Below, in pieces: positions 36,875-57,457 of a stretch of DNA of 64,000 nucleotides; position 1 is the first letter of the stretch; every line of letters starts with the position of its first letter. Both the position numbers and the translations under genes were made by a program. The DNA comes from Macrolepiota albuminosa. Lineage: Eukaryota; Basidiomycota; Agaricomycetes; Agaricales; Agaricaceae. Where the stretch lies: assembly GCA_027475525.1 (NCBI GenBank), contig JAMWFC010000037.1, positions 935,419 to 999,418 of the forward strand. The letters are read 5' to 3'. The notes under the pieces are model-generated. The model saw only the letters and a list, made by a program, of their open reading frames with translations, ran no database searches and was not told the origin of the DNA.

Positions 36875-37917
36875 TGATGACGCCAACTGTGGTTGGGTGC
36901 GCTGGACGTATACGCAGTACAACGCCGTCTCCAGCGCCTGGCGTATGGGTTTGTGAGGAGTCCCGGCAGGGTCCCGGTGTGCTCGAGCAGAGGTGATAGG
37001 GCGATGCGCTAGACGATAGCGCCTCGGGTGCTACCTAGCAAGTGGTAAGCGTCGTAGTTTAGGAGAAGTTATAGAGAAAGAAACGAATAGCGCAGCGTAG
37101 TGTGCCCGTAGGTGGCACCGTAAACGACGAAGACGAGATAGACGAAGCTAGCGCCGAACTTGGTGGCAAAGTCAGGCAACGCTAGCGCGATTTGAACGCT
37201 AAGTGTAACTGGGTGCTCAAGAGGTTACGATTCGTTGCTATATACATGGCAAGTAGCTAGTTTTTATACTATGCGCTACATTATTTCCAAAATAAGTCCA
37301 TTGACGGCGCTACCAATTAGCGCCTCTCTTCGTGACTGTAGCTAACGGCCACCTGTCAACGGCGACCTGCAGCACATGGGTGACGGCGACCAACGGCGAC
37401 TCTAAAACTACTTAGAAGTGGTACGAGTTTGCTCACTTTTTGATGTAATTTAATTGGCCATGCTGTCCCGGGGTATGGTCGGGGAATCCTCGACAGACGC
37501 CGTGAGCGCTAATTCCGGCGCTAAACATTGTACCATCTTTTGATAAATTTAAATGTCGGGTCTGCGTGTATCCTGTCTTGTCGTCATTGATTCTTTTAGA
37601 CTTCTGATTGAGGTGCCTTGGTGATTGACAGCGCCAATTGCTAACTCCTTCCAGTACTGATCGGGGTTTGGTCAGAGTCACCTCCCGCCGTTATGCTAGC
37701 GCTATGAGTCCTGAGTCTTCTTGGTCTTCAAAGTAACTGAGTGGAGTGCGCTGAGGGGCTGATACGGGTGATTGAGATGAATGGATAAGTCTTGCCATAG
37801 AGCGCCCGCGCTAGGGCTGCTCTGTACCCAAGGCTGGTCGCTAGAGCCTTTAGCGTGTCAAGTGTTGGTCGGCCTATAATGTCCCTTGATGCGCTCAGTC
37901 CGAGTAGAAGCCTATCA
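36875..37917 (-). repeat. 3' LTR of element B
   Basis: 1043 bp, starts TGATGACGCC and ends CCTATCA on the plus strand. It appears to be the same sequence as 49084-50126. Internal open frames of 60-80 codons recur in both copies and are not considered genes. Confidence 0.95.
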
Positions 37918-37928
37918 TCTCCCCCCAA
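37918..37928 (-). other. Polypurine tract of element B
   Basis: The minus strand reads TTGGGGGGAGA immediately before the 3' LTR start TGATAGG. This puts the plus-strand genes inside the element. Confidence 0.8.
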
Positions 37929-38006
37929 CTGAAAAATTGACTGTCCTCAGTCAAACGCCGTCGTTAATTTGACTGCGCTACGGTCCGTATAATGCCGCCG
38001 GCGCCT

Positions 38007-38014
38007 TATAAAAA
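38007..38014 (+). promoter_or_regulatory. TATA box of antisense gene B1
   Basis: TATAAAAA lies 58 bp before ATG 38065 and 90 bp after the end of the LTR. The C/T-rich stretch between it and the ATG fits a fungal core promoter. Confidence 0.55.
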
Positions 38015-38064
38015 GTCGTTTTCCGTACTTCACCTCCCCGTGTTTTCCTTCCCATCTTTCCAGT

Positions 38065-40587
38065 ATGTCCACTTCTTTCGACGCCTCTGCTCTCCGCAAT
38101 TTCCTGGCTAAGGCCTCCTATTTATTTGATCGCGCTAAGTCTGTCGGTCCCGCCGATGCGCCACAAACCGTCCCTGGTATTATGCAACTCTATCGGCGCT
38201 GGCTCGTGGTCCGCGGCTCCGACAGTTCCTGGGAGCGGGGTGACGAGGTTCGCGAGTGGTGCGTGGCCCGGTACCGTGAGTATGAGGGTGCCGATTGGTT
38301 GCGCCCTTTCGCGGACCTTTTCGTAAGTTTTCTAAGTTTGATTTTGGCGTTGTGGCGCTAAGGTTCAGCGCCCATACTAGGCTCCTTCCCTATCTGACGA
38401 GATCGACGCGTTGTTGGCTAGCACCGAGGTTAGCGAAGTAAGTCCTTCCTTCTCCTCTCCCCTTTTTCCACTGTTAATCCTTGAATAGTCGGTTGCTACG
38501 TCTCCCACCGTCGCCAGTCTTCCTACTGCCCCCTCGGCCTCTACTGTCCCTTCCGTTCCTACCGCCCCTCCTTCTTCGACTTCTGTTCCGCCTCCTTCTG
38601 TTCTTGGCAGCCCTTTTCGTGGCGCTGCTTCTTCCACTCGTCCTGCCCCAAGCGCTGCTTCTCCCGTCCGTACTGCCCCTCCCCATTCGGCCATCAAACG
38701 TATTGCCGTTTCTCGTAGCGAGCCACGACCCGGCCCGACGCGCCCAACTTCTCACGGTCCTCCGCGTAATTTCGCCATTGTTATTGAACGAGCGCCTCCT
38801 GCTCGTGCTAGTTCTCCTCCCAAACGTACCGTGCGTTCTTTTCCTATCTTCCTTACTCCATTTTTCTGACTTCTCCCCCTTCCAGATCAATCTCCCTGCT
38901 CGTGTTCCCCCTTTGTATGTCGTAAGTGCTTTGCTTGTTGTCGCTTGACTTTAGCGCCTAAATGTTAATGTCGATAGGCGCCTAACCAGACCATGTTCAC
39001 CGACGCGGAGCTTCGCGACCTTTTGCGCCTTCGCCGTGATACTACCGTCATTGATACCGGCGTTCCGGCTGGTGTCCAAGTGCTGGGCGGCAAGAAGAAG
39101 GTTACCGTTGCGCCCTTGGAGCGTCGCGCGTTTAGGGCAAAGATTGGCGCGGTAAGCACTGTTTTGCCCCTTTGGAGGTTCATGCCGTCGCTAACTTCTT
39201 TCTTAGTGTGACAAGTGTTGGTCTGAGAACGACCCTGAGGGCTGCTGGTTTCCTACCGCGTCTCTGCCTTGCTATCGGTGCGATGCGTTGAAACGAGGCT
39301 GCGCTTTCAACGGGATTCGTACTCGTGAACGTGGTAGGGACGCCATTATGCAAAGGAACTATGAGCGCGCAGTGTTGGTTCGTAACGCCCGGGACTTCGT
39401 GCTGCAGCAACGTGATTTGGCGGCTACTCACCAACCCACGGTAATCAGCGCAGCCAGCCTGGCGCTGCCGACTACTCAGGATGGTACTACCGTGGCAGCA
39501 CCTTTTGCTCGCTCTCCTCGTCGTCCCGTCCTTTCGAAGCGTAAGCCTGTTGTCGCGTCGCCTGGCAAGAGCCCTGGTAAGCGCCGCGAGCTAGCGCCCG
39601 CTACGCCTGTGGTTTTGTCTTCGACCGAGTCTTCTACGGATGAGGGGGAAGGCACTGAGAGGGATGCCGAGGGAGAGGATGATGATGAAGCTGAGCCCGT
39701 TGTTGATGCCGATGCGCTGTTGGCGGTACGCGCTCTCCTGCTTCGCCTTACTCCCCCTATCGCCGCTAACCCTCGTCAGAGTGACCCCAGTGGTAACCAG
39801 TACGCATTTCCCTAACTCCTCTTCTCTCCGCGTGCTAACTTCTTGACTGATAGGTCCCCCACTCCGGTTCCCGTCGTCGTGGCTATCCCTGCTGCCGAAG
39901 ATGTCGTTATGTCTGACGCTGGCGCTACCCCTGCCCCCGAGTCGGTTGCGGCTAGCGACACTCCGGTGGCTCTCCCTATTACTCCGTCCCTTACTCCTCC
40001 CCACAGCTCCTCTTCTTTTCCTAGTAGTCGCGAGACTTCTGCGGCGCCGGAATCCGAAGGAACCCTGGTGCCGGAAGGTGAGCGTCGTCGCCGCTGGAGA
40101 TACTTGCCTCCCTACGGCATCCATCTTTCTTCCGCCAGAGCTATGTCCCCCGGCGACGAGCGCCATGAGTGGACACCCCGTGCGCCTGTAACTGTCCGGG
40201 TACGTCCGTTTTTGTTTGTTCCCCCATTTCTCCCCTTTTCTAACCTTCCATAAGTTCGATCCCTTTTGGACTCCCCCTCCCGCCATGCGAGTTTCTGGTG
40301 ACGCCTTCCCTTGGCTCGGGGACGAGTTCTCCTATCCTGTTACCCCTCTCCGCCCTTCTGCCGACCTTCGCCAGCAACTCCGCCATATCGAGGATGCGAC
40401 CGAAGCCGTTGGTCGCGAACTTGCCAACCTGCGTCCTCGTGTTTCCACCTTAGCTCGTCGCGAACGCCTCCTTCTCGAGCTTCATGACGATATTACAGCT
40501 GCGCTTGAGTGGCAAGCGAGTAACTCGATCCAGGACGGGGACTTGCTTCCTTTGGGCGATCCCGCCCTTCCCGAGTATGATCCGTAG
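38065..40587 (+). CDS. Antisense spliced gene B1 in element B, Zn2Cys6-like protein
   Basis: Eight exons: 38065-38322, 38381-38437, 38489-38830, 38886-38921, 38978-39151, 39207-39799, 39854-40199, 40255-40587. The seven introns are 51-58 bp, all GT-AG, and all phases agree, giving 712 residues. Residues 1-105 form a helical module (GIMQLYRRWLVV) that recurs in B2 and B3. A Pro/Ser/Thr-rich linker follows. Cysteines at about 290, 293, 302, 311, 314 and 321 give CX2CX8CX8CX2CX6C, close to the Zn(II)2Cys6 pattern of fungal transcription factors, followed by basic residues. The C-terminal part has an acidic stretch, another Pro-rich part and a likely coiled coil (LRQQLRHIEDATEAVGREL). The gene is opposite to gag-pol. 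DNA binding is an inference. I know no family for the whole protein. Confidence 0.8.
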
Positions 40588-41066
40588 TTGCCGACCCTTA
40601 GCGCTTTTAAACTTTTATGGACTTAGTCTTTTTGATACGAACTTTGTAGTATGTGATCCTATAATAAACGCTTCCCTTGGCTTCAAATCGTCAGTTTGTA
40701 AGTAATCAAAAGAAAATAAGTAAAAAGGGGAAACGCTCAGTAGATCATCATGGCGCAAAAACCCCTGTTGCCGGCGCGGCCCAATAGCCATTACCGCGCC
40801 AGCCTAAGTAGAAAATAGGAACTGTCTGTAAATAAATAAGCGGATCCATGTAAGAAGTAACGCGTATAAAGAAATAGAAAACCAGTGATCGCTTTGTGGC
40901 TATTCGGTGATGGTGAGCATAAGCGCTAGGTCTAGAATGGCGATTTCCTTTCTGCGCGATCCAACCATGAGTCAAGCGCCTCTCATTGGCTAGTATCTTC
41001 GTCAGGGTCCTCGTTCTTTGTGAAACGTCCTCCCACGCTGTCGCCGTTCTAACTCTAGCCGTGTCC
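40588..41066. other. Spacer between B1 and B2
   Basis: I see no supported gene. It presumably holds the B1 terminator region and the B2 promoter. Confidence 0.5.
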
Positions 41067-41074
41067 TATAAATT
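41067..41074 (+). promoter_or_regulatory. TATA box of antisense gene B2
   Basis: TATAAATT lies 43 bp before ATG 41110, the same arrangement as in B1. Confidence 0.5.
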
Positions 41075-41109
41075 GCATATGCATCAACTGGATCTCATCA
41101 GTCTTCGCG

Positions 41110-41622
41110 ATGACCAGCCCGACCGGCCTGGTGTGGACTCCCCGCTGTGATCGTGCTCACGTCATGATGGACCCTCCCACTTTCCTAGAGCGTGTCACCT
41201 CTTTCCTTCACCACTATCCTACTGGCAGCGTGCCAGAACTGGACGATGGCGTCCTCGAATTAAGTCGTCGCTGCCAGTTGCTGCGTGCGGCCTGTGAGAT
41301 CTGGTCGGATAGCAAACCTCTGATGCAGTTCGGTATGGAGAAGGCCTGGAGTCGCATTTTTCAGGTGCGCTCCTGCCTTTTTCGCCCTCTTCTTTGCTGA
41401 CAGTCGCTAATTAAAGCAAATTCCTCCCACCTCCACGCGAGAGCGTCTTGAGCTGCTGCTGGAAGAAAGCCACTATCTGGTCCGTCTGTCCTTACCCCGT
41501 TACTCCTTTCTTTTCCTGTCTAACCGCGCCTTCTTCACCAGTCTCCTCGTTCTTCTACCGGTGGTCGCCTCTTTCGTGGCCCCTCTGACGGGGCGCGTCT
41601 CCTCCTGTTGCCCGCTCCTTGA
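41110..41622 (+). CDS. Antisense spliced gene B2 in element B
   Basis: The exons 41110-41364, 41417-41479 and 41542-41622 are joined by introns of 52 and 62 bp with GT-AG borders, all phase 0, giving about 132 residues. The core TFLERVTSFLHHYPTGSVPE...LSRRCQLLRAACE resembles B3 (AILDRIEHFLAIMPTGGFP...LVRRYRILLDVSTE) and more weakly the N-terminus of B1. The C-terminal tail is basic and short. The function is unknown. Its own TATA box and introns suggest independent expression from the strand opposite to gag-pol. Confidence 0.6.
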
Positions 41623-41863
41623 TTTGCTTCCGCCTCCCGTGTCGTTTATGTAAGGTGATCTTCCCTTCTCCGTAGCGCCACAGAACTGACAGATTTTAGA
41701 TTCTTGATTTCCAATGTCGTCGTATATTAATTGCATCGTTGTTGTCGCCCCCTCCCCTCGTGATTGTTTCGCCCATGTAAAAGTTCCTAAGTCGCTGCGA
41801 CCCTGCAAGTAGCTAGAGATATTTTATGGGCTCTGCCGCCCTTAAGTTTGTTAGTATTTTGTC

Positions 41864-42582
41864 ATGCAAGCACCCTCCATACTTCTCCCAGATCCGGAAC
41901 TTCCTTACCGCCCCGCGATCTTGGATCGTATTGAACATTTCCTGGCTATTATGCCTACGGGGGGCTTCCCTCATGAAAACGGAAATACCATGACCCTGGT
42001 GCGCCGATATCGTATCCTGTTGGACGTTTCCACCGAATGGATGATAGACCAGGATGAGTCTCTGGTCACGGTTCGCCTCCTGTTAGCGCGTATCTTGTTC
42101 GTTGCTCATGTGTTCGCAGTCGACTATTACGCCTAGCGCAGCAAGTTTGGCAAGCCTTCTTCGGGAGACCGGTAGTTTGGTTAGTCCATAGTTCTTTCCT
42201 TTTGACCTTGGGTTGCTAATTCCATGCCGTTGCCAAGAGCCTTTCATGGCTTCCCCTTCCGCTCCTGGTTGAGTCCCGTGCCCGTAGGGCAGTCCTCGAC
42301 CGCGTGGTCTTTCCTTTCCCGCCTTCGCTTCAGCCCTCCTACGAGGAGTGGGACCTTTCCCCCGAACTCGCTGCCCCTCCTCCAGGCGCTCCTCCTGCGC
42401 CAACTCCTAGCGCTCCCGTACCTTCATCCTGCATTCCTCCCGCCGTATTTCACAACGCGCCGCCTTCGAACACTCCGGTGCCTACACCAGGCGCCCCTCT
42501 TCCTCCTACAGGCGATCCTCCCTCCTTTAGGCGGCCCAGGGAGCGGGTCCGAGGTTCTCGTCGCCGGTCTTCTTCAGCGTAG
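41864..42582 (+). CDS. Antisense spliced gene B3 in element B
   Basis: The exons 41864-42100, 42142-42171 and 42238-42582 (stop TAG) are all phase 0 and give about 203 residues. The first exon carries the same module as B2, including the MPTGGF turn. The second exon gives QVWQAFFGRP. The third is Pro/Ala-rich and ends in a basic RPRERVRGSRRRSSSA tail. The first donor (GTTGCT) is weak, so that junction is less certain. Without splicing the frame ends at 42136. It converges with pol, whose stop is at 42730. Confidence 0.55.
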
Positions 42583-42729
42583 CTCGTAACGTAGTAACCG
42601 TAGTTGATCTTGTGTTCTCGCCTGTACCATAGCTATTTATGTCGTCCAACATACCTTCCGAAAGGGAGACATGACCTAAGTTTACTTAACGGGGGCGCTA
42701 ACACCTAGCGCCTCGTCCTTCGCCTTCCT

Positions 42730-45700
42730 TTACTGTTCTTCGTCGTCTTCAACAGGGGTCTCGTCATCATCCACTAACTCCGTTTCTTCCAGTTCTCGTA
42801 GCTTAGCCGTGTCAATGTCCAGCGCCGACGAAGGTAAGGGAATGTGTTCCCGCGCTAAGTAGGGGATGAGTCGAAACGCCGCTACTGGTCGATGCAAAAC
42901 TGAGCCGTCCAACTCGCAGAGTACATAGGCGCCTCCCCTATTGCGGGAAACCACTATTAGGGGTCCCAGATACCGAGGTCGCATCTTTTTGTTATGGGTA
43001 ACTTCGATCTTTGAGTTGCGCATTAGTACGAGGGCGCCAGAGGTGAAGTTGTAGTCTCTAATCGTGGCGCTGTGCTCGCTTTCAAATCGTAGCGCAGCTT
43101 GTCGTCTAGTTTGAAATACTACTTCGTGTAAGCGCTCGAGATCCTCCATGCGTCGCTGTAAGTCTATAGCGCGCCTAGCAATCATGTCGGTGGAAGATAG
43201 TATCGAATTCGGGGGTGGCTGTAAGTAAGTAGCTTCCACTATGTCGGCCGGGAGGAGTGGATGGGTGCCTGTCGCCGCGTAGTAGGGTGAACAACCCATC
43301 CTTTTTCGTACGGTAACCCTCTCCGACCAGAAGACCGAATAAGTCGCTTCGCTCCAGCGACTTTCGTCACCATCGACCGCCTTAAATAGCGCCTGTCGAA
43401 CGTCGAAATGAGGCCTTTCTACGATTCCGTTGGCGCGCTTGTTGTAACCAGAAACCCGTATGTGTTGAATGTTGTACTTCTTGGCAAGATAAGTGAGCGC
43501 CTTAACTATTGGCGCTCCATTGTCTGTGACGATCTCGTGAAGGGCTCCCCATCTGCAGATAACGTCCTCAAAGAGCCACTTAGCTATAGCGTCTGTATTT
43601 TCCCGTTGGAGCATACGGAACTCCGGCCAATGTACCAAGGAACACCTTCCTTGAATGATATACTTGTAGCGCCCTGACTTGGGCATGTGCATGGTGTCGA
43701 TATATATTTTTCCAAATAGCGGCGCTGGGGTCGCTACTGTTGGGGGAATAAGAACCTGACGTGTCTGCTGGATTTGACAGAGATGACAAGTGCGAATATA
43801 CCACGCAATATCGGCGCTAACTTGAGGCCACCAAAAGCGCTCCAAAAGGTTCGCTCTTGTTGCGTAAAGTCCACGGTGTCCCAAGTCATCGTGCATAGCG
43901 CGTAGAACTCTAATTCGATTGTCCGGTTTAATTACTAGCTTGTGGGCGCCATCTCTATTTCGTCGCCAAAGTCGGTTTTCCACTATAAAGAAGGTCGTCG
44001 CGTATCGAATGAAGGTGGCGTATTCCGTATCCGTAAGGTCTGATGGTCGTCGCAAATCCTGTAGCCACTTCCTAACCTGGCCAACTCGCTGATCTTCTGA
44101 CTTAGCTTTGGCGCTTCGAGGTACCGCCGAATATGGTAAGTTATGACTGTCTTCCCGCAAGGGTCTTGGTTCCTCAACTATCTTTAGATCGTTAGATGGC
44201 TTAGCGACGTTATAGATACTGGCCGTGTAAAAAGTTGATGATGCCTGATATGGTCGGGGCTGGTACGGAACAATAGGGTGGAGCCAATTTGAAACTGGTT
44301 GGTCTTCGCGAAGCGCCGGAATAGGCAGCTGAATGATATGCACGAAACCATGCAATCGATCGATCCAGTCGTCAAATACATCGTTGTCGCTATCGTCTAG
44401 CGCTTCATCTTCCGGTTGTCTGGGTCGCCTAGATAATCCGTCCGGCCCGTGGAATGCACTTCTGACGTGTACTAACTCGAAGTGAAACATTAATATCGCT
44501 ACTACCCAGCGGTTCATACTGGCCGACGGCTGAATATCAGGGTTCTGGAGCATTCCCTTGATGTAACGCGCGTCGACCTCGACAATCAGATTTCGAACCC
44601 CGATAAGGTACATGCGTAGCGCCTGGAACGATCGAAACAAGCCATATAACTCTAGCTTGGGCTGACTATAGCGCGATTCTCTGTCGTTAAGGGTAATCGA
44701 TCCGAAGCGGTTGTAGCGCCTGATTTTTCGGTTCTCGCCATCGCATTGGCATAGGAAGAAGCCAACGGCGATATATGAAGTGTCAACTGCAAGTATAACG
44801 GGATCGGCGGTAGTATAATCAATGGGTACCAATGGTTTTGCTTCCTGTAGCGCCTTTACTAAGTCCTTCTGGGCATTGATTTGATCGGGTCCGAATTCGA
44901 AGGGGACCCCTGAACGGGTTAGGCGATTAAGGGCGTTTGCGCGATGAGAAAAATGGTGTATGAACATGCGCAGCACCCCTACAGTGCCCAAGAACGCGCG
45001 AACTTCCGAGAGGTTATGACAGACCCCCCACTTCTCCAACAGCGCTAATCGGCTCTTTTCTGGAATCCTGCCTTCTGGCGTGCAAACGTGCCCCAAAATT
45101 TTAAACTGCGGTGCGCAAAGAACGAGCTTGTGCCCTGAAAACGTCCCGCCACTATACTTCATGCGCTGAAGTACTCGGTTAACCAGTTGAAAGAATTCCC
45201 ATAGCGCCATGCGAATATTAGGGTTATCCGGGTGAACTTCGGGCTTGCCATCCACCAATCGCCAATCCTTCGGGCCTTTAACTCCTACGTCGTCTATGAA
45301 ACTGAGCACATGGTGGGGTATTTCGGGCTGTAGGATAAACGTAATATCGTCGTGAAATATCGGTACCGAGTTTGTCCATCCCATAGGAAGTGTGACTAGT
45401 CGTAGCGCCCCAAACGGTGTTTGGAATGTCGTCAAGTCGCGAGAGGAAGGATGGATTAAGCGCTCGTCGTAGCCTACGTACAAATCCAGGGTAGCGCCAC
45501 ATATTCGTCCCGCGAAAGATTCAGCGACGTGATCGGGAAATGGCGGTACCCCTGAATGACGAATGGTGACTTTGTTTAGCGGTTCTAGGCTGTGAACTAT
45601 ACGTAGCTTCCCGTTTTTCTTTAGTACGCAGAACCACCTCGAGCGGTAGGCCGAATTAGAAGGCTCGTATACACCTGCCGCTATCTTGGAGCGAATAATT

Positions 45701-46440
45701 TGGCAGACTTCGGCTTCGATGCCCGGGGGTATGGGTCGGTTATGTTCAGTCCAGGGTACGTGCGGTATGGTTGGGATGACCACTGGTGGAAAGAAGTCAG
45801 TTCTAAGTTTACCGCGTTCTGAGTCCTCCCATGCAAAAGCCTCATTCTGTTTTTGCATGATGTCGACTAGTACGTTCATCTCCTCCGTCGAGAGGAAGCC
45901 GGTATCGTGGGCGCTAAGAAATAGCGCCTTTCGTTCTTCTGTAAATCGTCCTGTAGGCTTAAAGGGTGGCGGGTTCGGATCGAGTTTTGGCAGGGTAGCC
46001 AAAGGGTCGCCTATTATTTTTCTTTCGATGCGAAATTCCTCGGGTACGGCGCTCGCTACCGGCTTCGTTTTAAGCGCTACGGGTTTATATTTCTTCTTGA
46101 CCTGAACCCCTTTGCGCTTAGGGGTACTATTGTTAGCAAACGTATTATAAATAGAGTCATGGTTTCTAGCGAAACCTGGTATCAAAGATTCTTTAGAGTT
46201 GGGAGTAGAAACGAAATAAGTGTCTGTTGAAAGGTTTTCAGTAATATCTGACGCAGTGAGGTATAAGTAGGATAACGCTTCGCTAGTAAGCGACGAAGAA
46301 GAATTCAAGACTTCATGGGCTAAAGGGGTATATGATATAAAATTTACTTGCCCAGTCCGATGGTTATAGTCCAAGATAAGCGCTTCATCTCCATGATCCC
46401 CATCACTCATCTCCTCGATGGCGCCGGAAAACACTCGCAA
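42730..46440 (-). CDS. Pol of element B (RT, RNase H, integrase)
   Basis: This is an intact frame of 1236 codons. RT has LVTLPMGWTNSVPIF and the catalytic FIDD at about 381-384. An RNase H-like segment follows (VILAVDTSYIAVGFFLC, YSQPKLELYGL). The integrase has an HHCC zinc module (LGHRGLYATR...CHLCQ), catalytic Asp at about 915 (IYIDTMH), a second in IVTDNGAP and Glu in NGIVERPHF. A small barrel-like C-terminal part (RPRYLGPLIVV...GGAYVLCELDG) follows, without a typical chromodomain. The first ATG lies within the end of gag, in the -1 frame, with 34 bp of overlap. The family is typical of agaricomycete Gypsy elements. Confidence 0.93.
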   Translation of the reverse strand: MRVFSGAIEEMSDGDHGDEALILDYNHRTGQVNFISYTPLAHEVLNSSSSLTSEALSYLYLTASDITENLSTDTYFVSTPNSKESLIPGFARNHDSIYNTFANNSTPKRKGVQVKKKYKPVALKTKPVASAVPEEFRIERKIIGDPLATLPKLDPNPPPFKPTGRFTEERKALFLSAHDTGFLSTEEMNVLVDIMQKQNEAFAWEDSERGKLRTDFFPPVVIPTIPHVPWTEHNRPIPPGIEAEVCQIIRSKIAAGVYEPSNSAYRSRWFCVLKKNGKLRIVHSLEPLNKVTIRHSGVPPFPDHVAESFAGRICGATLDLYVGYDERLIHPSSRDLTTFQTPFGALRLVTLPMGWTNSVPIFHDDITFILQPEIPHHVLSFIDDVGVKGPKDWRLVDGKPEVHPDNPNIRMALWEFFQLVNRVLQRMKYSGGTFSGHKLVLCAPQFKILGHVCTPEGRIPEKSRLALLEKWGVCHNLSEVRAFLGTVGVLRMFIHHFSHRANALNRLTRSGVPFEFGPDQINAQKDLVKALQEAKPLVPIDYTTADPVILAVDTSYIAVGFFLCQCDGENRKIRRYNRFGSITLNDRESRYSQPKLELYGLFRSFQALRMYLIGVRNLIVEVDARYIKGMLQNPDIQPSASMNRWVVAILMFHFELVHVRSAFHGPDGLSRRPRQPEDEALDDSDNDVFDDWIDRLHGFVHIIQLPIPALREDQPVSNWLHPIVPYQPRPYQASSTFYTASIYNVAKPSNDLKIVEEPRPLREDSHNLPYSAVPRSAKAKSEDQRVGQVRKWLQDLRRPSDLTDTEYATFIRYATTFFIVENRLWRRNRDGAHKLVIKPDNRIRVLRAMHDDLGHRGLYATRANLLERFWWPQVSADIAWYIRTCHLCQIQQTRQVLIPPTVATPAPLFGKIYIDTMHMPKSGRYKYIIQGRCSLVHWPEFRMLQRENTDAIAKWLFEDVICRWGALHEIVTDNGAPIVKALTYLAKKYNIQHIRVSGYNKRANGIVERPHFDVRQALFKAVDGDESRWSEATYSVFWSERVTVRKRMGCSPYYAATGTHPLLPADIVEATYLQPPPNSILSSTDMIARRAIDLQRRMEDLERLHEVVFQTRRQAALRFESEHSATIRDYNFTSGALVLMRNSKIEVTHNKKMRPRYLGPLIVVSRNRGGAYVLCELDGSVLHRPVAAFRLIPYLAREHIPLPSSALDIDTAKLRELEETELVDDDETPVEDDEEQ

Positions 46441-49004
46441 GGGTCGTCGCTAACATAAGGTCGCTTTCTCGGTCCCGGTTTCTGGAATTTCCCCCGTGGA
46501 AATGTTGGTACCGTTCTTCTGACGCCTGAGTTAGGGTCGCTAATAGTTAGCGTCGTTTCGTCTTCAGACGTCGTCTTGACTACTGATCGGGCTAAGACGT
46601 CAAAGGGCCTCCCTAATAATAAGTCGTACGCGGGCGATCTAAGAATGTGTATTTGAAGATAAAACGTAAGATCGCCAACAGCGCATGGCACGTTACGAGC
46701 CATTCCCAAGGATCGATCAATCGTGCCGTTAGCGCTTTGCATATTAAGAATGATGGTCGGGTCGTAAATGATGCCAAGCTCGTTAGCGACGTCGGCAGCC
46801 ATTGAAATAATCTGTGATCCGCTGTCCACTATAGACTCTATCTCGCTTTTTCCATCAACTGTTAACATGATCGAGCGAATCGCGTGAGAGTCTTGGGCTA
46901 CAGTGAGGACGGCGGGATCGTCGCTAGATCTTAGCGATTTAAGGTAAGTTTCGACCGGGTCAATGGACGTAGCTTCTTTAGGTGGCGCGGCCTCTTCTTT
47001 GATTTCCGACGCGACCGTCTCGGTTATGTACGCGAATCCAGGTAGCGCGTCGTCGCATTCGTCCACCGCCGTTACATTGTTAGCTACGTTCCGTCGAGGG
47101 GTTACCGCTGTACGCATCTGATTCCTGACGTCTGGCGCCACACTGCATAGCTCCCCTACCGACATCGTGACTTGACTTTTCATAATACGATCGAATACTT
47201 GCTTAGATTTTTCTATGTCGTAGATTGGTGCCGTTGGTCGGTAGCCTCCTGCTGGCTTGTCTGGCGCCCCAAAGTTTCGGTTGATAGGCGGAGCATAGTT
47301 ACCGGAAAGTCCTGAATACGGGTGAAGTGGCGGTTCCGTGCTAGCTGGTGCTTTGGCCGTATCAGGTGTGTCGTCGTTGATACTGGAATTCGAAGGCTTT
47401 GCCGGTGCTGGATCGGTCGTAGCGCCTGAAGGTCTATAGTCTTTTAACGGTTGCTTGCTCTTTTTAATCTCGACACCATCGAAAACCTGATTCTTTAGCG
47501 ACTTTAGCTCCCTTTCCAACGTCTCGATCCTCTCCTCCCGTGACAACGTCGGTCGCTCGCTAACAGCGTTAAGCTGGAGTACTTCGTGAATTAGCGCCTG
47601 TTGTGGAGTTGTTTCTGCCTCCGCCGCGGCCGTACTATTGAGATTGCCCGTCGCTAAGTTCCCAGGGTTACGTCGGTGCCATTCATCAATTCGCCCCTGG
47701 AAGGTTCGGTGCTCAGGATATAGAGGGATGTTAGCGCCGGAAGGTAGGACTATTTTCCCGTCAGCGCCTCGACGTGCTCTTCCTTGGCGTAGATATTGTT
47801 CGAGGATAGCGCAGCGTCCGCGAGTCATCGTATGTCCTGCCTCACCACAGAAGTGACAAGGACCGGATTGCATATTACCTCGTGGCGCATTAAGGCTGGT
47901 CGAGATTAACGTTTCCAATTTGCTCATAACGTTTGCGACGGCCGTGTTGACTGCGTTTTCCAGATCCTCCTTCTTGACAAAACCTCCCTGATTGTTAGTC
48001 GCGCTAGGTGCTGGCGCCGCAACAGGTGGCGCCTTTCCTCCGTTATCAGTGCTAGAAGGTCGCTGGAAGGGGATGCCAGTATCCGTTCCTTTCAGTATCC
48101 ATTTACCTGCTTCAAAAACGTCTTCTATATCGTAGGGTTCCTCAGGATGATGGTCGGACTTAAGAATTTCTAAGCGACGAGCTATACGAGTCCAAAGTGA
48201 TGTTGGAATGCCTTGTTGAAATAAGCGCCGTTCCTCGTTCCGGTAGAGTTTGCCATTCTGTACTAGCCATCTTGCAATTCGCTGGAAATCTCGATAATAA
48301 GTAGATAGCGTGCCTAGTGTATAAATGCCCGTAGCGAAGGTATCCTGTACCAGTTTCTGGATTTCAAGGACGGTATAGCGCGTGGATTCCTCAGCGCCAG
48401 GGTACAGTTTAATGATCGCCTTTTTCCATTCCTCGTAGGTAAACGACCTTGGCACCGCCTCTCGTGTTAATCCTTGAAACTCATCCAGTCCCGTCCAGGA
48501 TTCCGCGGTATCGTAGGAAACGTATCTGGCGGCGTATTCTTTCATTTGGGTGTTGTCGGTGACTCGGCAGTCGCGTAATAAATATTCCAATTCTCGAAAA
48601 TACTGTGTTAGCTCGCGAGGTTTCGTCTCGTCCCATTTTGGCGACGAGAAGTGGTTTCTTGGCGGCATACGCGGTGTGTTTGCCTGTTCCATACTAGCTG
48701 GCGTCGACGTCGTGGTGGGAATAGTAGTGTTAGTGGTAGTTTCGCTTGGCGTAGTTGTAGTCGGTACTGGCTCGGGTAATTCTGAGTCGCTAGGTTCTGG
48801 CGATAATGACCTAGACAGCTCTTCCAAAGGAGTAAGCGGTGTATGGTTTTCACCTGCTAAGTATTCAAACGGTCGGGAAAATGGGAAGAAGCTTTCAGCC
48901 AAGCTATCTGGAGCGGCTTCAAGCTCCTGATCTAAAGTCTGCCTCGGTAGCGCGCCTGGTAAGTGTGGTGACTCAGTTAAGGTTTGCTCAAACGCGCTCT
49001 CCAA
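46407..49004 (-). CDS. Gag-protease of element B
   Basis: This is an intact frame of 865 codons starting 80 bp after the 5' LTR. The N-terminal third is Thr/Ser/Pro-rich. A helical capsid-like domain spans about 110-300 (WDETKPRELTQYFRELEYLL, FTYEEWKKAIIKLYPG). A zinc knuckle starts at C383 with CX2CX4HX6C, one residue longer than the usual CX2CX4HX4C type. The aspartic protease has DSG at about 727 (IVDSGSQIISMA) and LLLGRPFD later. The stop at 46407 overlaps the start of pol. Confidence 0.92.
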   Translation of the reverse strand: MESAFEQTLTESPHLPGALPRQTLDQELEAAPDSLAESFFPFSRPFEYLAGENHTPLTPLEELSRSLSPEPSDSELPEPVPTTTTPSETTTNTTIPTTTSTPASMEQANTPRMPPRNHFSSPKWDETKPRELTQYFRELEYLLRDCRVTDNTQMKEYAARYVSYDTAESWTGLDEFQGLTREAVPRSFTYEEWKKAIIKLYPGAEESTRYTVLEIQKLVQDTFATGIYTLGTLSTYYRDFQRIARWLVQNGKLYRNEERRLFQQGIPTSLWTRIARRLEILKSDHHPEEPYDIEDVFEAGKWILKGTDTGIPFQRPSSTDNGGKAPPVAAPAPSATNNQGGFVKKEDLENAVNTAVANVMSKLETLISTSLNAPRGNMQSGPCHFCGEAGHTMTRGRCAILEQYLRQGRARRGADGKIVLPSGANIPLYPEHRTFQGRIDEWHRRNPGNLATGNLNSTAAAEAETTPQQALIHEVLQLNAVSERPTLSREERIETLERELKSLKNQVFDGVEIKKSKQPLKDYRPSGATTDPAPAKPSNSSINDDTPDTAKAPASTEPPLHPYSGLSGNYAPPINRNFGAPDKPAGGYRPTAPIYDIEKSKQVFDRIMKSQVTMSVGELCSVAPDVRNQMRTAVTPRRNVANNVTAVDECDDALPGFAYITETVASEIKEEAAPPKEATSIDPVETYLKSLRSSDDPAVLTVAQDSHAIRSIMLTVDGKSEIESIVDSGSQIISMAADVANELGIIYDPTIILNMQSANGTIDRSLGMARNVPCAVGDLTFYLQIHILRSPAYDLLLGRPFDVLARSVVKTTSEDETTLTISDPNSGVRRTVPTFPRGKFQKPGPRKRPYVSDDPCECFPAPSRR

Positions 49005-49063
49005 TAGGAGGCGGCGCTGTCGCTGGGCTCGAGTTTCCGGCGGAATTCTGCCTCAATAGAACC

Positions 49064-49080
49064 CCTCGCGGTGGGCTCCA
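49064..49080 (-). other. Primer binding site of element B
   Basis: The minus strand reads TGGAGCCCACCGCGAGG three bases after the 5' LTR. It starts with TGG and so would pair with the CCA end of a tRNA. The tRNA species is not identified. Confidence 0.7.
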
Positions 49081-49083
49081 AAA

Positions 49084-50126
49084 TGATGACGCCAACTGTG
49101 GTTGGGTGCGCTGGACGTATACGCAGTACAACGCCGTCTCCAGCGCCTGGCGTATGGGTTTGTGAGGAGTCCCGGCAGGGTCCCGGTGTGCTCGAGCAGA
49201 GGTGATAGGGCGATGCGCTAGACGATAGCGCCTCGGGTGCTACCTAGCAAGTGGTAAGCGTCGTAGTTTAGGAGAAGTTATAGAGAAAGAAACGAATAGC
49301 GCAGCGTAGTGTGCCCGTAGGTGGCACCGTAAACGACGAAGACGAGATAGACGAAGCTAGCGCCGAACTTGGTGGCAAAGTCAGGCAACGCTAGCGCGAT
49401 TTGAACGCTAAGTGTAACTGGGTGCTCAAGAGGTTACGATTCGTTGCTATATACATGGCAAGTAGCTAGTTTTTATACTATGCGCTACATTATTTCCAAA
49501 ATAAGTCCATTGACGGCGCTACCAATTAGCGCCTCTCTTCGTGACTGTAGCTAACGGCCACCTGTCAACGGCGACCTGCAGCACATGGGTGACGGCGACC
49601 AACGGCGACTCTAAAACTACTTAGAAGTGGTACGAGTTTGCTCACTTTTTGATGTAATTTAATTGGCCATGCTGTCCCGGGGTATGGTCGGGGAATCCTC
49701 GACAGACGCCGTGAGCGCTAATTCCGGCGCTAAACATTGTACCATCTTTTGATAAATTTAAATGTCGGGTCTGCGTGTATCCTGTCTTGTCGTCATTGAT
49801 TCTTTTAGACTTCTGATTGAGGTGCCTTGGTGATTGACAGCGCCAATTGCTAACTCCTTCCAGTACTGATCGGGGTTTGGTCAGAGTCACCTCCCGCCGT
49901 TATGCTAGCGCTATGAGTCCTGAGTCTTCTTGGTCTTCAAAGTAACTGAGTGGAGTGCGCTGAGGGGCTGATACGGGTGATTGAGATGAATGGATAAGTC
50001 TTGCCATAGAGCGCCCGCGCTAGGGCTGCTCTGTACCCAAGGCTGGTCGCTAGAGCCTTTAGCGTGTCAAGTGTTGGTCGGCCTATAATGTCCCTTGATG
50101 CGCTCAGTCCGAGTAGAAGCCTATCA
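49084..50126 (-). repeat. 5' LTR of element B
   Basis: 1043 bp, appears identical to 36875-37917. Target duplication GCGC follows at 50127-50130. Confidence 0.95.
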
Positions 50127-53100
50127 GCGCTTAGCAAGCTGATTTGGGCGCTTCACGCCCTGCAGTTCTAAGTACCGATCCAATGCTGCCAACTTGGCAC
50201 ATGTGTGGTACGACTCCCATGTCGTATCACCTGCACTCCACCGCACCTCGAATTCGAGGTGCGTTCCTTCCTGCCACCGATGGCCCAGGATGTCCTCGAC
50301 AAACCATTCTTGTTCGTCACTGGCACCGAAATCATATGGCTCGGGAGTCACCCGATTAGGGAACATAGCATCATCGTTTGCGTTATACCGCCTAAGTAAC
50401 GATACGTGGAACTTAGGCACAATCCGACGTGCCTGCAGAGCTGCAGGCAGCTCCAGAACATAGTTCGACGTGCTTGGTTCTGCGACCAAGACTCTGTATG
50501 GTCCAATGAATTTTGGACACAGCTTTCTCGCTCTTCCTTTCGGAAGATTCAAGTTCTCCGTCGACAGGTACACTAACGTCCCAGGCGTTAGTTCTGGTTC
50601 CTCACTTCGCCTATCATTTGCATGTCGTGCCTGTATCACATGCGCGGCAATGATGGCGTCGTGTGCATTGGCTAGATTCGCCAATGCTTGCTGTGCAAAG
50701 TCCTTTACCCCCTTGTGAACGACTCCGTCTGCCTTTAGTTCGCGCAGCATGGAGGGCATGTAACCTCCATTGAGCTCGAACGGTGCATATTTCGTGGTCT
50801 CAGACACACTCGCGTTGATCGCGAACTCAGTTAGCGGTATTCTATCCACCCAGTCGCGTTGGTCCGGTCGGACCACCGTACAAAAGATCTGGGCAATACT
50901 TCTATTCGCTCGCTCTGTCTGTCCATCCGTCTGCGGATGAAACGAGGTGGACATGAGCAGTTTAGCTCCCAGGAGCTTGTGAAGTTCTCGCCACCAGTGA
51001 GATGTAAACTTGGTGTCTTGATTGCTCACGATCGAACTTGGAAGGCCATGTAGCCTTACAATCTCCTTCAAGTAGATTCAGGATAACGCGGACGCCATAA
51101 TGGTTGTGTGTACTGGTATCAAATGTACCATACTCGTCATTCGGCAAATGACCACCCAAAGGTAGTTATACCCTTTGGACTCGGGGAATGGACCAACAAA
51201 GTCCATTCCAATGGAGTCCCACGGCTTCGTCGGGATGGGCAGGGAATGCAACTTCCCTGCTGGCTTCCTATTGCTGGTCTTCGACCGCTGGCAGGCCTCG
51301 CAGGTCTGGCAGAACTGCATCACTTCTTTCTGCATCTGAGGCCACCAGTACCATTGCCTCAAGTATTCTAGTGTTTTGTTGGTTCCAAAGTGACCAACAA
51401 CCTCATGAGCTTGGGTGACAACCTTAGTGAGCAGTGTTCGGTCGCGTGGTAAGCACACCACGTCGTGCCCTTGAACATTCGTTATCCGGACTAGTCCTTT
51501 CTCATCCACGCTGAAGCATGGATGGGCGTTTGCGTTCTGCTGGATTTCTGTGTAGAACGCATCACGTCTATAGCCCCTCATCACCTTTTGGAGGTACTCA
51601 TCAGTTTGAGGGACAGGAGGGTTACGATACTCTCCTGTAGGCAATAACGCGTCAGCGAGCGTAATGTCATGGCTATCCGGTCCACGACTGCTTCCAGTCT
51701 CACTTTGGTGTGGCTTTGTCGCCTCCTTTTGCTGAGCCTGCTCTAGTTGCTCAGCCTCTATGTCACGGCCCTCTTGCCGCTCTTGCAGTCGTTGACTGCG
51801 TCGCAGCTCGGTAGCTTGCATAGCCCGAAGCTCGACCACATGCTCCTTCACCTCTCTGTAGCGATGATATGGAAGATCATCGCCATGAGGATCAATACGA
51901 ATGTCCGCATCGACATACTCATGCGTATCATGGTGTTCGCCTGCTCTATCGCTCTCGAAGTACCTTGAGAGACAGTCCGCCACCTTGTTCAGTTCGCCTT
52001 TGACATATGTGATGTCAAAGTTGTAGCGAGACATATAGTCAATCCACCGGCGTTGCCGGGGGGACAACGTTGCTTGAGTCTTGAAGAACTCAAGTGCTTT
52101 ATGGTCTGTAATGATGTGGATCTTATATCCCATCAATTTATCTTCCCACTTAAGGAGCGCCTCAAGTATCGCTAGCGTTTCAAGCTCATGGACCGCATAA
52201 TTCTGTTGGGCCAAGGTGAACTTCCTCGACATGAACCCTGCAGGCCGACAATTGTGCCATGAGCTTCCCTGGCCGTACATTGCACCTACTCCGGTCTTTG
52301 AGGCATCACAGATGAGCCAAATCGGCTCATCACGTCGGGGATCTATGGGACGAATGACTGGTGTCTTTGAGCAGATCCTCTTGATCATCTCAAAACATCG
52401 TTGATGTATAGGTCTCCATATAAATGGAGCTCCATTCTGCGTAATAGACATCAACGGTCCAGTATATGCTGTTATATCAGGCAGACAATTGCCGATATAG
52501 TTCACTAGTCCCACGAATCTTTGCACATCATTATAGTTACGAGGCACACGCCATTCGCGTATGCGATCGATTTTGTCCTGGTCAGGGTGAATACCCTGAC
52601 TATCAATCTTGTGTCCGAGGCAATCCACTGTCTCGGCATATAGTTTGCATTTCTTCCACTTGAGGTATAGCAAGTTAGACCTCAGTCGCTCGAAAATGAC
52701 ACGAAGATGCTCTTCGTGTTCTTCGATTGAATCGGAGTATATGAATATGTCGTCCAAATAGATATGGACAAACCTCCCGATAACATCCCGGAAGATGGAG
52801 GTCATCAACCTCTGAAATGTCGCAGGAGCATTGCAATCTCCTATCTGCATAATGTTGCTCACATATGTTTCCGTGATTGACGAGAACACTGTCTTTGGGA
52901 TATCAGACAAGCAAATTCTCACTTGCTCATATGCATCCGTCAGGTCAATTTTCTACCTGAACTTTGCTCTCGCCACATCTTCTCGAATCACTTCCTGATC
53001 CGGAAGTGGCATCACGTCCTTCACGGTGTTGTCATTGCGTTGGCGTGCATCCAACGCCGTCCTCAATGTATCATCTTTCTTCGGAATGCACAATAGCGGA

Positions 53101-53667
53101 GCAGCTTGGAAGGCTGGTTGGGCCTCCCACCAGTGAGCTCTCAGGTACCGATTGGTCTTGTCTCGGAGCTGCTGCTGCAGTGCCATTGGACATCGAGGCA
53201 AATGATATTTATACACCTTATTCTCATCAATAAGGTTGATTTTATGGTTGACCTCTCGCCAAGGAGGTAACTCCTCCTTGGTTCCGTTCAGAATATCCGC
53301 AAATTCCTGCTGCCACTGCAATCGTAGGTCCGGAATGTCCTCCTTCGTAAAACCACTGGTTTTACCTTTGCCCTTCCAGTCCACATCCTTGCATGGGCGC
53401 CCGGACAGCTTTGCTTGTACGGCTGGACGGCCATACTTCTCTCTGAGGGCAGTAATCCTCAGCTCGCTGTCATCCGGCGTGTGCAGTCGCACAGGCACTT
53501 CCTTCTTACTTCTCCATGACGTCACAGACAGTCCGTCGAAGAACACCTCACTCGGCGACGATATCTCGTCGTCACTAGCCTGACGATACGACTCCTCCTT
53601 CGACGTCCATCATGGTCCATTCCACGCATACATCGACGCCACTAGGTCATTCCACTCAGCAGGCATT

Positions 53668-53821
53668 CGTGGATCAAATGCCCATTCAAATGTGGGATGA
53701 GGTACTGGTCGATCCCAGATTGACCGATTCGTATGTGTGGAGGACGTGGATCAAATGCCCATTCAAATGTGGGATGAGGTACTGGTCGATCCCAGATTGA
53801 CCGATTCGTATGTGTGGAGGA
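53668..53821. repeat. Exact 77-bp tandem duplication in A pol
   Basis: Bases 53668-53744 recur at 53745-53821. Collapsing one copy joins the protease-RT spacer in frame. Confidence 0.92.
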
Positions 53822-55191
53822 TGCCTCATCCTCCATCAGTCCTTGGTCATCGTCATCTGTTACCAAGTCCTCAACCTTCACTCGCGACAACGTCGGTTGG
53901 CACTCTGTGCTTGCCGCATGCTGAGGCCGCTTGTCCTCAGACTTACTCTGCTTTTCACACTTCATCTCCTTCATCTCGGGGCTCTCCCCCCTCTTCAGAG
54001 TACGTTCGTACTCTACAGCTTCGCTTTCCAGCATCAACACCGCCGGACTATCCATGGGCAAGCTCACACGAGCTTGCTCTTCATCCTCTCCATCCTCAAC
54101 CGTAGGCACTTTCTTGCCTCCGTCTAGTCAGTGTCGCCTGACTAGCACCTTCTTCTCCGTGGCGCGGTGTCGATGGAGACGTCCATCTCCATTATCTATG
54201 GTCACTCGCACTGCAGGGATGGTGGTGCCATCCACCACTATCTCATTCTTCTTGAAGTTCAGCAGAACGTTGTGCTTCCTCATATACGGCGTGCCTATAA
54301 TCATGTCGTAACGATCAAAGTTTGCCACATCAAGGTACTCCCTCGTCCTTGATTTTGCACAGACGATACTCGCCTGCGTACCAAACTGTACCGCAGCTCG
54401 GCTGCCCACAGTACCCAATTGAAGGAGTAGTGGCTCCTTCAACTCACTGACAGAAATATCGTGCACTTGGCAAAACTGGGGTGTCACCCCAGTAGTCGTA
54501 CTACCTGAATCCCACAATGTCCACGCCTTGTGGCCATTCACCTCCACGTACGACGCCAGGCACTCCTTATCCTCGCGCTTCAACACCAGTCTCACCAGCT
54601 TCTCTGGAGCCTTGCGAAGGTGTACCTTATACACCTTAACATTGGCTGCTCCAACGGGACGGTCTAATGCACTGGCCAGGTAGTCCGTCAGAGCTCCCAT
54701 GAACTCTGAGTCTGACTCCCGGGCGTAATAATTGTTGTCGTATACGTCAACCTCCACGTATTCATCATCCGACAACTCTTCTACCACAGAGGCATTTTCA
54801 TCCTCTGGTGCATCAGGTATGAGGTTCTCCACCTCATCGTCTTCCACATCAGGTTCATTTCCGGAGTCTATCCCTTCAGCATCCGGGATAGCAGTGTGCG
54901 CCGCCCGTACATAGGCACGTGGCTTACCCATAGGCTTTCCACCACCCACTGGGCATGCATTCGCAAAATGCCCAGGCTGACCACATTTGAAGCACTTACT
55001 CGCCACGAAAGGGCGAGCTGCTTCATACTTCGGTGGCCCAGTCGGTGTCGGCAATTTAGCCTCACCAGCAGCCTGATGCGGTCGAACACCCTCTCGGCGT
55101 GGACCTCTCTGAGCATCCTGTGCCGGTGCATCCCTACGGTCCCCCGGCCGGTCGCTCCGGAAGCGTCAGTCTTGCCGAGGTGCTGCTCTTA

Positions 55192-55345
55192 CTACGAACC
55201 TCGGGTTCGTATTGCCCACCATCTCCTTTCGACGAGCCCAGAAGGTGCCTACCTTCCGAGGCTCGGCCCTACGAACCTCGGGTTCGTATTGCCCACCATC
55301 TCCTTTCGACGAGCCCAGAAGGTGCCTACCTTCCGAGGCTCGGCC
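55192..55345. repeat. Exact 77-bp tandem duplication in A gag
   Basis: Bases 55192-55268 recur at 55269-55345. Collapse restores the frame into the zinc knuckle. Confidence 0.92.
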
Positions 55346-56143
55346 TTGTTTACCGATCGAACCTTTGAGCTATGTAGCCCAAAGTGTCGCGCTATTTTGT
55401 GGGCTTGCTCGTAGCGCAATGCATGCGCTACAAATTCCTCGACGGTATTTACTTCGGGCGATAGTCCGTCATCACAAATGAGGGACTCTCTCATTGCGTC
55501 AGGTATCCCCCGCAGGAAGGTATCAATCATTACCCAGTTGTCTGGGTAAATAGACATATTCTGTGCGTGGTCTATCAAGGTATCATAGAAACCTTGAACA
55601 CCTAATCGTTCGGTGTAGGAGGTTGCAATGAACGCCTCCCGAGCATCCTGCATGGTGGATGCACTCACGAACCGGTTATATAATTCAAGGATTACATCCT
55701 TGAACGTCCATTGCTGTCGTGCACGATTGTAGTGCAAGACATGATGACGGAACCAGGCTTTGGCTGGTCCATCCAGGAACTCCGGGAGCACGAACACACG
55801 TTCTCGATCCAGACGATCCCCCCCATACTGGCATGCTGCCAGATGGTTGCACACATCCATCGTCCAATTTTCCAAGTTGCTAAACTTGGACTCTCCTCTG
55901 TATGGTTGGATGTGTTTTGACTCCGCCTTACGTGGTTTGATACCTTCGGGCAGGCGCAATGCTACGCCTACCGCATCGTCGATTATACTACTGAGGCGCT
56001 GGTGCATATTCTCAGTATACACCTTTGTCGCCTCAGTTATTCCAGGCGTTTTATTTCTACCTTCCGCTGGAGGTACCACGGAAAATGCACGTACAGGTCG
56101 GTGACCTGTGTAGTGCACTTTCTCTGCACCCTTCCAATGCAGT

Positions 56144-56297
56144 GGGCTCTCCTGTCCCCCTAGCTCTTCTATCACCTGCTTTCCAGGGCCTCGGCTCGGA
56201 TCCGCCGTGGGCGGGTCCCCGGGCTCTCCTGTCCCCCTAGCTCTTCTATCACCTGCTTTCCAGGGCCTCAGCTCGGATCCGCCGTGGGCGGGTCCCC
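56144..56297. repeat. 77-bp tandem duplication in A gag, one mismatch
   Basis: Copies 56144-56220 and 56221-56297 differ at 56193 (G) versus 56270 (A). On the coding strand this is CGA versus TGA. Confidence 0.92.
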
Positions 56298-56473
56298 TCT
56301 CCTGGTGTCAGGCTGTCATGTCCGTTGGACATATTGCCTTCTCATCTCATCGATGGGTGTTATCCCATCAAATACAATTCCCTGGTCGTCTATCCAGGAG
56401 TGCCCCTGGCGCTTCAGGTCTTGGTTCCGCATGCGCTGATAAGCTACTCTCTCCGCAAACTTATCAGCCAACG

Positions 56474-56627
56474 GCACTTGATTTGTCAGTGGAACATTCT
56501 CCACTGATTCCTGTTTTGTGTGAGGGTGCCTTGGCTCCCCCGCTTCGTGTGCACTTGATTTGTCAGTGGAACATTCTCCACTGATTCCTGTTTTGTGTGA
56601 GGGTGCCTTGGCTCCCCCGCTTTGTGT
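56474..56627. repeat. 77-bp tandem duplication in A gag, one mismatch
   Basis: Copies 56474-56550 and 56551-56627 differ at 56546 (C) versus 56623 (T), again at a CpG. Confidence 0.92.
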
Positions 56628-57457
56628 AGGTTGCTATCTACCACAGGTATGGTAGACACCGATTCAGTTGTCGACAGAGGTCTCCTTCGCTGACCTCTGA
56701 ATACATTCTGTCTTTGTGCTGCAGCGAACCTGGCAGCGAACTGCTCGTCAGACTCTCCTGCTTGCTGGGGCGCATATATATTGCTCATTGCCTCTTCCAG
56801 ATGGGGAGACAACTCTGGCTTTGCCACTGGGGGTATATTCGGAATCAAGTTTGCCCCCTCTGGAGTCGAGGCAGCTGATCCTCGATTAGCCTTGCGATAC
56901 ATATATGCTTGGGCTTCCAGCTCAAGAATCTGAATGTACAATGTAATGTATTCAACAGTATTCAATTGAGGTACATTTTCACCTCTAGCCTGTATCAACC
57001 GTATGTGCTTCAGTACATACAGTCCTAGTCGAGCACGCGTGGTATCCTTTGTAATGCTAGGGTATCTCTTCCATAGCATAGCACACTGAACCTGAAGGGT
57101 GGACTCACTCCGTCCACTCTCTTCGTCGTCGGACGTTTCATCTTCCCAATGTACTGCTGGCGTTCTTTGCTCAGGAATTGTCGTTTCCTGCGGCACTCCG
57201 GCTCCCTGCTGACGTTGCGTCATGGGAGTGGATTCAGTTGGAACTCTCCAACTGCCCGCCTCTTGCCTCGGCATCTTCCCCAGAAAGTACGACGAAGGTC
57301 TGCGACCTTCGATAGGTCCCTGAGCACTACTCCTGCTCTGGAATTGTCGCCCTGACCTCCCAGTCTGCATGGAAGATTCATGATCCCTGCCGAACTGCTG
57401 TTCCAGGTCTTCCACAATTGCCCCTGGTCTCGCTGCACCGCTTGGCGCAGCTGTCGG

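Follow-up and report, generated by a model that had tools for sequence, protein, structure and literature searches.

Our analysis of a 64,000-nucleotide stretch of the Macrolepiota albuminosa genome (GenBank assembly GCA_027475525.1, contig JAMWFC010000037.1, forward-strand positions 935,419 to 999,418; hereafter the window) concerned a long terminal repeat (LTR) retrotransposon, element B, in which three plus-strand genes (B1, B2 and B3) sit between the stop of pol at 42730 and the polypurine tract at 37918, antisense to gag and pol. Comparison among copies of B demonstrated that selection acts on the predicted proteins of these three spliced genes, and the motif analysis described below makes it rather probable that B1 acts on its own family as a DNA-binding trans-activator or anti-silencer, in the manner of the VANC proteins of Arabidopsis transposons. 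An initial annotation of the window had described B as looking like an LTR element with its own cargo or regulators, a description now supported by genes that are multi-copy, under selection and, for B1, apparently regulator-like.

Element B is a Ty3/gypsy LTR retrotransposon whose two LTRs are 100% identical with TG..CA ends (TGATAG..TCATCA), whose flanking target duplication is 4 bp (GCGC) and whose domain order is that of Ty3, Pfam placing the aspartyl protease in the gag open reading frame (ORF) and RT_RNaseH followed by Integrase_H2C2 in pol. The reverse transcriptase model of Pfam had no match in B, where the motif of this enzyme was recognised by eye only.

A search of the genome (100 Mb, 129 contigs) returned 13 full-length matches to the 4.5-kb antisense region, the window's own included, along with partial ones (64 match rows), and this copy number rules out the single-copy host gene insertion that the initial annotation had considered. 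Among 849 candidates, 150 matches to B1 exon 6 were scored, of which 140 were stop-free, with identity down to 84%. Ten further LTR pairs of B carried 0–15 differences, nine of them 0–2, so that with the window's pair 10 of 11 pairs have 0–2 differences, indicating that the family moved recently. Twenty diverged copies were fetched, with B1 matched in all 20, the 3' LTR end (36875) in 18 and pol in the same order in 18; their DNA identity to B was mostly 73–87%. Thirteen of these were aligned, the other seven having large insertions or lacking the pol anchor, and the diverged copies referred to below are this set of 13 unless stated otherwise.

Selection on the antisense genes across copies

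Of 156 alignment cells for each type of splice site, 153 kept the donor and all 156 kept the acceptor, compared with control GT dinucleotides kept at 47% inside introns and 61% in intergenic sequence and control AG dinucleotides kept at 89% and 60%, respectively. Since control AG is itself kept at 89% inside introns, the donor figure is the more telling of the two. Indel lengths in B1 and B2 were divisible by three in 45 of 53 cells within exons and in 14 of 153 within introns, counts in which cells share ancestry and so are not independent events, and from which 77-bp artefacts (8 exon and 2 intron cells) were set aside. The ratio of non-synonymous to synonymous substitution (dN/dS) against the window copy was 0.09–0.16 for B1, with its optional intron treated as exon, and 0.14–0.20 for B2 and 0.17–0.34 for B3, the last two being rough values as synonymous sites are close to saturation. 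The window's frame, read along the diverged copies, was open to the end of B1 in eight and of B2 in 12, and past residue 165 of B3 in six. Among eight close copies, including the window's own, all three frames were open in seven, so that the decay of frames in all copies, envisaged in the initial annotation, was not observed. Chance ORFs are ruled out by the conservation of splice sites and frames and by dN/dS. One further observation concerns a close copy (L004) in which B1, B2 and B3 are all out of frame through small length differences and one LTR is 1 base short, which may reflect sequence error or decay.

Identity was compared between introns and exons without the closest copy (L010). B1 introns 2, 3, 4, 7 and 8 were 43–72% identical and B1 intron 5 was 74–80% identical, against 73–95% for B1 exons, and B2 intron 1 (81–85%) was kept better than the B2 exons (67–77%). 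B1 introns 1 and 6 showed exon-like conservation (87–95%); the latter is 54 bp long and in frame in 13 of 13 copies, with changes that are not codon-like, and both introns are possibly regulatory or alternatively spliced.

The splice sites, indel phase and dN/dS values across the 13 copies uphold the earlier proposal of three intron-bearing antisense genes. The pol stop, the polypurine tract and the TATA boxes lay where that proposal had placed them. Its GT-AG introns also stood, seven in B1 besides an optional one and two each in B2 and B3, at lengths of 49–62 bp and not the 41–66 bp first given. The optional sixth intron of B1 is an in-frame interval of 54 bp, and the last B1 intron has a possible alternative donor at 40188. 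B3 intron 1 was initially placed at 42097–42136, an interval that was dropped as both of its ends were kept in no copy; the interval now adopted (Table 1) was common to five of the six rows that yielded a solution, with GT/AG kept in 13 of 13 copies. The B2 TATA box was unchanged in 13 of 13 diverged copies and that of B1 was present throughout the set, two copies having a 1-bp gap in it and three a changed last base. The stretch 5' of B1 (37929–38064) was 90–96% identical across the diverged copies.

A protein search with full-length B1 gave no match, and searches at E ≤0.01 gave three matches for B1 exon 6 and at least 35 for a profile, with the 7993 best word-sharing candidates scored. All matches among those listed came from Termitomyces (34 from T32_za158 and one from Mn162) and were annotated as hypothetical, and a scan of IMG/VR gave no match. 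The predicted Termitomyces proteins aligned continuously with spliced B1 across the junction positions, one of them (P0017) covering residues 9–380 and five junctions, which supports the joined reading of B1 at the level of protein, the intron places and LTR setting of these relatives not being read from it. In an alignment of 17 sequences (B1, 13 copies and three Termitomyces proteins), five cysteines of the cluster that opens exon 6 were invariant and the sixth was kept in at least 90%. B2 and B3 possess a common N-terminal domain (hhalign E 2.4e-7) followed by a phase-0 intron, a 20–21 codon exon and a further phase-0 intron, and their paralogy by sequence is firm. Similarly, B1, B2 and B3 all begin with a phase-0 intron, a 19–21 codon exon and a second phase-0 intron. 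The B1 N-terminal domain matched that of B2/B3 at hhalign E 0.036–0.1, with column shuffles scoring as high in 1 of 100 and 4 of 150, so that a common origin of this domain in B1 is only suggestive.

Motif arrays in element B and in a sibling family

The hexamer GCGCTA (or its complement TAGCGC) occurred 55 times in the 12.2 kb of B that comprise one LTR and the interior, against 8.5 expected, compared with 9 occurrences against 11.7 expected in the rest of the window. It was densest in the LTR (13 against 1.1 expected), and its counts in pol (19, with 3.6 expected) and in gag (9, with 1.4 expected) were reached in none of 1000 synonymous-codon shuffles. GCGCTA ranked first or second among hexamers in all 18 diverged loci examined. 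Its sites in the antisense region were kept at 47–73% across the 13 copies, against 17–50% for hexamers of the same composition. The sites are dispersed and extend into coding sequence, and do not form tandem non-coding arrays as in VANC-type elements.

A search of the genome with a Termitomyces protein scored 150 matches among 775 candidates, 122 of which lay in frames of 383–443 amino acids unlike those of B; the cysteine-cluster gene is present in further families, and its lineage is large in this genome. Two loci, L049 and L050, represent a sibling family. In comparison with B, L049 was 79% identical in pol, 62% in part of gag, and 32% (residues 280–711) and 41% (residues 16–85) in B1, which had thus diverged further than pol or gag, and parts of the L050 B1 were 41–47% identical to B. 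The B1 homologue of L049 is antisense and occupies the same place as in B, and searches for B2 and B3 in L049 gave no match at E 0.001. Introns 1 and 5 of L049 and L050 fall at the same codon and phase as in B1, and the sibling exon 2 has 23 codons before its GT donor, against 19 in B1. The region of B1 introns 6–8 is a single open frame in L049, indicating that the introns of these antisense genes are not frozen. The 43 bp in which the polypurine tract lies (37911–37953) are identical between B and L049.

The leading motif of L049 was CG[CG][CT]AAG, found 78 times in 10 kb against 15 times in 12.2 kb of B. In L049 pol it occurred 31 times against 3.1 expected, a count reached by none of 1000 shuffles. 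Aligned B and L049 pol had no CG[CG][CT]AAG site in common (3 in B, 31 in L049), and identical protein residues underlay 12 of 17 GCGCTA sites found in B only and 11 of 31 sites found in L049 only. With GCGCTA still above expectation in L049 and CG[CG][CT]AAG mildly so in B gag, the change of motif between the families is a partial shift and no replacement. L050 agreed with L049 and is not an independent case, the two being 75–95% alike where aligned.

Candidate function of B1 and alternative explanations

We propose that transcription of B1, B2 and B3 would proceed along the plus strand, with promoters supplied for B1 and B2 by their TATA boxes, and that retrotransposition would leave the introns in place, since the genomic RNA has the complementary sequence. 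The B1 product would be nuclear and would bind, through its cysteine cluster, a short motif with a CpG (GCGCTA in B) that is dense in LTR, gag and pol, and by occupying these arrays it would mark copies of its own family and keep them transcribed or unmethylated, probably with the assistance of the paralogues B2 and B3. Expression and RNA splicing of these genes, the nuclear location and DNA binding of B1, activation in preference to repression and the roles of B2 and B3 are what we infer. The simplest account of a motif dense in coding and non-coding parts, of positional turnover at maintained density, of a leading motif that shifts along with B1 between families of similar pol, and of purifying selection on B1 is that B1 may read the motif. 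Its density over the element body and not at the promoter alone favours marking or anti-silencing, as for VANC21.

Several observations weigh against this proposal. The B1 cluster resembles fungal Zn2Cys6 clusters (PF00172) in its general pattern, but their canonical spacing is CX2CX6C...CX2CX6-8C, and the B1 cluster departs from it with no Pfam match; Pfam and Protein Data Bank (PDB) searches with the B proteins returned nothing credible, and structure models were poor (predicted local distance difference test, pLDDT, of 63 and 49). GCGCTA was not enriched in the B1 coding sequence of B (3 against 1.9 expected), and in the closest copy its sites were kept at 47% against 50% for controls. The motif also showed a strand bias of 22 to 6 in gag-pol, with none in the LTR (6 to 7) or the antisense region (8 to 6), so that a role of the motif in RNA is possible. 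GCGCTA also exceeded expectation in L049 pol (14 against 2.2), where only two of its sites were common to aligned B (19 and 14 sites), a background rate also seen for all hexamers (11%), and CG[CG][CT]AAG was mildly enriched in B gag (5 against 1.8, with 32 of 1000 shuffles as high). The co-divergence of motif and protein is therefore partial and a correlation of two pairs only, and repression by B1 would leave the same traces as activation.

B1 may accordingly be read instead as a DNA-binding repressor that holds copy number down or shuts out related elements through the same motif arrays, as a form of self-immunity. The evidence from motifs and selection fits equally, and HBZ-type antisense regulators of retroviruses, HBZ itself being a spliced bZIP protein of human T-cell leukaemia virus type 1 (HTLV-1), can oppose sense expression. 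A repressor would, however, need few promoter-near sites, whereas those of B are dense in gag, pol and LTR, and the recent amplification of the family seen in its LTR pairs also argues against repression, which we regard as quite improbable. Alternatively, the arrays may serve another reader, such as a host factor, the integrase, an RNA step or nucleosome positioning, with B1–B3 having a task elsewhere, such as assembly, import into the nucleus or the targeting of CpG sites. This would suit the strand bias in gag-pol, the merely putative status of B1 binding and the NCGN target sites of B, which had a central CG at both sides in 11 of 11 LTR pairs, with identical duplications in 9 of 11. Such a reader is nevertheless unlikely, as the leading motif differs in a sibling with 79% identical pol and its most diverged protein in B1. 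Of 18 diverged copies read on one side, 14 had the target CG and three had TG or CA in its place, and integration of B seems to aim at CpG.

Two further explanations carry far less weight. Control through antisense RNA has been considered for elements of this type, and the genes could be passive cargo or the antisense RNA itself the product; the dN/dS values of 0.09–0.34, the phase-keeping indels and the conserved splice sites point instead to selection at the protein level and make this very improbable. That the gene models arose from chance GT-AG pairs or assembly error could be argued from the 77-bp duplications in this assembly and from the first, incorrect drawing of B3 intron 1, yet it is hardly conceivable given conservation in 13 copies, continuous Termitomyces relatives and the absence of any 77-bp junction of the window from B. 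These duplications (59 of 60 tandem duplications of period 30–400 bp and at least 95% likeness in 324 kb) were read as contig-overlap artefacts of k=77 and not as biology, and exon insertions of 74–77 bp were ruled out as decay on the same grounds. The window's own junctions lie at 1272, 25617, 27315, 33409, 34901, 36472, 53665, 55189, 56142, 56472 and 57455.

With regard to silencing, CpG sites of the window copy were changed to TpG or CpA at 0.32–0.41 in 8 of 13 diverged copies, compared with 0.17–0.18 for non-CpG C. Three copies (L009, L011 and L012) had no such excess and two (L010 and L014) had little (0.18 and 0.25). The excess loss suggests that resident B copies are CpG-methylated.

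A wider proposal, which we hold as a possibility somewhat short of even, is that B belongs to a fungal LTR lineage with self-recognition, in which a fast-evolving cysteine-cluster protein would bind a family-specific motif laid out, in part by way of synonymous codons, across most of the element, and in which protein and motif change together and each family activates mainly itself or protects mainly itself from silencing, in a VANC-like manner of separate origin in fungi and with introns preserved by antisense encoding. The candidate DNA-binding cluster, together with two sibling families whose candidate target motifs differ and are very dense, would provide a direct handle on the function of antisense genes. 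Element B also illustrates how a retrotransposon can keep introns through much divergence, and its gag-pol sequences suggest an influence of selection for a short motif on which synonymous codons are used.

Element B is adjoined on its right by gag-pol-like ORFs of the same strand (50127–57541), assigned by eye to a further element, A. A 1.9-kb stretch of its pol had no GCGCTA and one CG[CG][CT]AAG, neither motif being enriched.

Table 1. Positions of element B and its features in the window
Feature	Position	Strand	Description
Element B	36875–50126	−	Complete LTR retrotransposon; gag and pol on the minus strand
3' LTR	36875–37917	−	1,043 bp; identical to 49084–50126; 13 GCGCTA/TAGCGC copies
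Polypurine tract	37918–37928	−	Inside the 43-bp block identical in sibling L049
B1 TATA box	38006–38014	+	58 bp 5' of ATG
B1 gene	38065–40587	+	Seven introns and one optional; 690–712 amino acids
B1 introns	38323–38380, 38438–38488, 38831–38885, 38922–38977, 39152–39206, (optional 39726–39779), 39800–39853, 40200–40254	+	
B1 six-cysteine cluster	39207–39302	+	C-X2-C-X8-C-X8-C-X2-C-X6-C; first 32 residues of exon 6; seen on aligning 13 copies and 3 Termitomyces proteins
B2 TATA box	41066–41074	+	43 bp 5' of ATG
B2 gene	41110–41622	+	132 amino acids; introns 41365–41416 and 41480–41541
B3 gene	41864–42582	+	203 amino acids; introns 42071–42119 and 42180–42237; N-terminal domain paralogous to B2
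pol	42730–46449	−	Pfam: RNase H, H2C2 zinc-binding domain of integrase
gag with aspartyl protease	46407–49052	−	Pfam
5' LTR	49084–50126	−	1,043 bp

Comparison with known systems

Antisense accessory genes have been described in other LTR retrotransposons, where their function is called unknown (PMC7264820, PMC11963269). The plant Ty3/gypsy elements Grande, RIRE2 and Retand resemble B in having ORFs in antisense orientation after pol and ahead of the 3' LTR, gene23 of Grande having its own promoter and a nuclear product and TRP28 being predicted to bind DNA (PMC11963269, PMC7264820). Retand TRP28 (PF04195) had no match in the B proteins at E up to 10, and B differs from the plant elements in being fungal, in its three intron-bearing genes (2 to 7–8 introns each) and in its element-wide motif arrays; a word search of the main texts of both reports (PMC11963269, PMC7264820) found no mention of introns. 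Among fungi, Boty-like elements of Botrytis cinerea are reported to have one antisense gene, brtn, at the same position (PMC7264820, PMC8365987, PMC4227169). Boty possesses a chromodomain (PMC4227169), for which B gave no Pfam match, and has a single reported antisense gene in comparison to three. HBZ of HTLV-1, transcribed from an antisense promoter inside the 3' LTR (PMC11963269, PMC7264820), is likewise an antisense regulatory gene of a retroelement, as B1 is a candidate to be.

The initial annotation knew of no description of the exact arrangement of B. An antisense gene at this position has precedents in Grande, RIRE2, Retand and Boty. No report of a multi-intron antisense gene set, or of an LTR element with a family-specific motif array, was found in a literature search that left subscription journals mostly outside.

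Dioxygenases of the TET/JBP type, which DNA transposons carry in Agaricomycetes and other fungi, have been proposed to allow escape from methylation silencing (PMC12730594). These are likewise transposon-encoded proteins with a proposed escape from silencing in fungi, although they are enzymes of DNA transposons and B1 is a candidate motif-binding protein of an LTR element. VANC of Arabidopsis VANDAL transposons is an anti-silencing protein with demonstrated hypomethylation (PMC5735166, PMC10398659), and the localisation of VANC21 reportedly depends to an important extent on motif density (PMC5735166). VANC and B have in common a transposon-encoded protein and a short motif that is dense in its own family. 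Motif and protein diverge among relatives in the VANC case, and a partial divergence of both was seen between B and one sibling family. VANDAL elements, however, are plant DNA transposons with non-coding and often tandem motifs, whereas those of B are dispersed and also coding; a methylation effect is known for VANC only, and the sequences were compared through Pfam only. In summary, the arrangement of element B is of a known kind as an antisense accessory gene, and its multi-intron gene set and motif arrays appear to be the new part.

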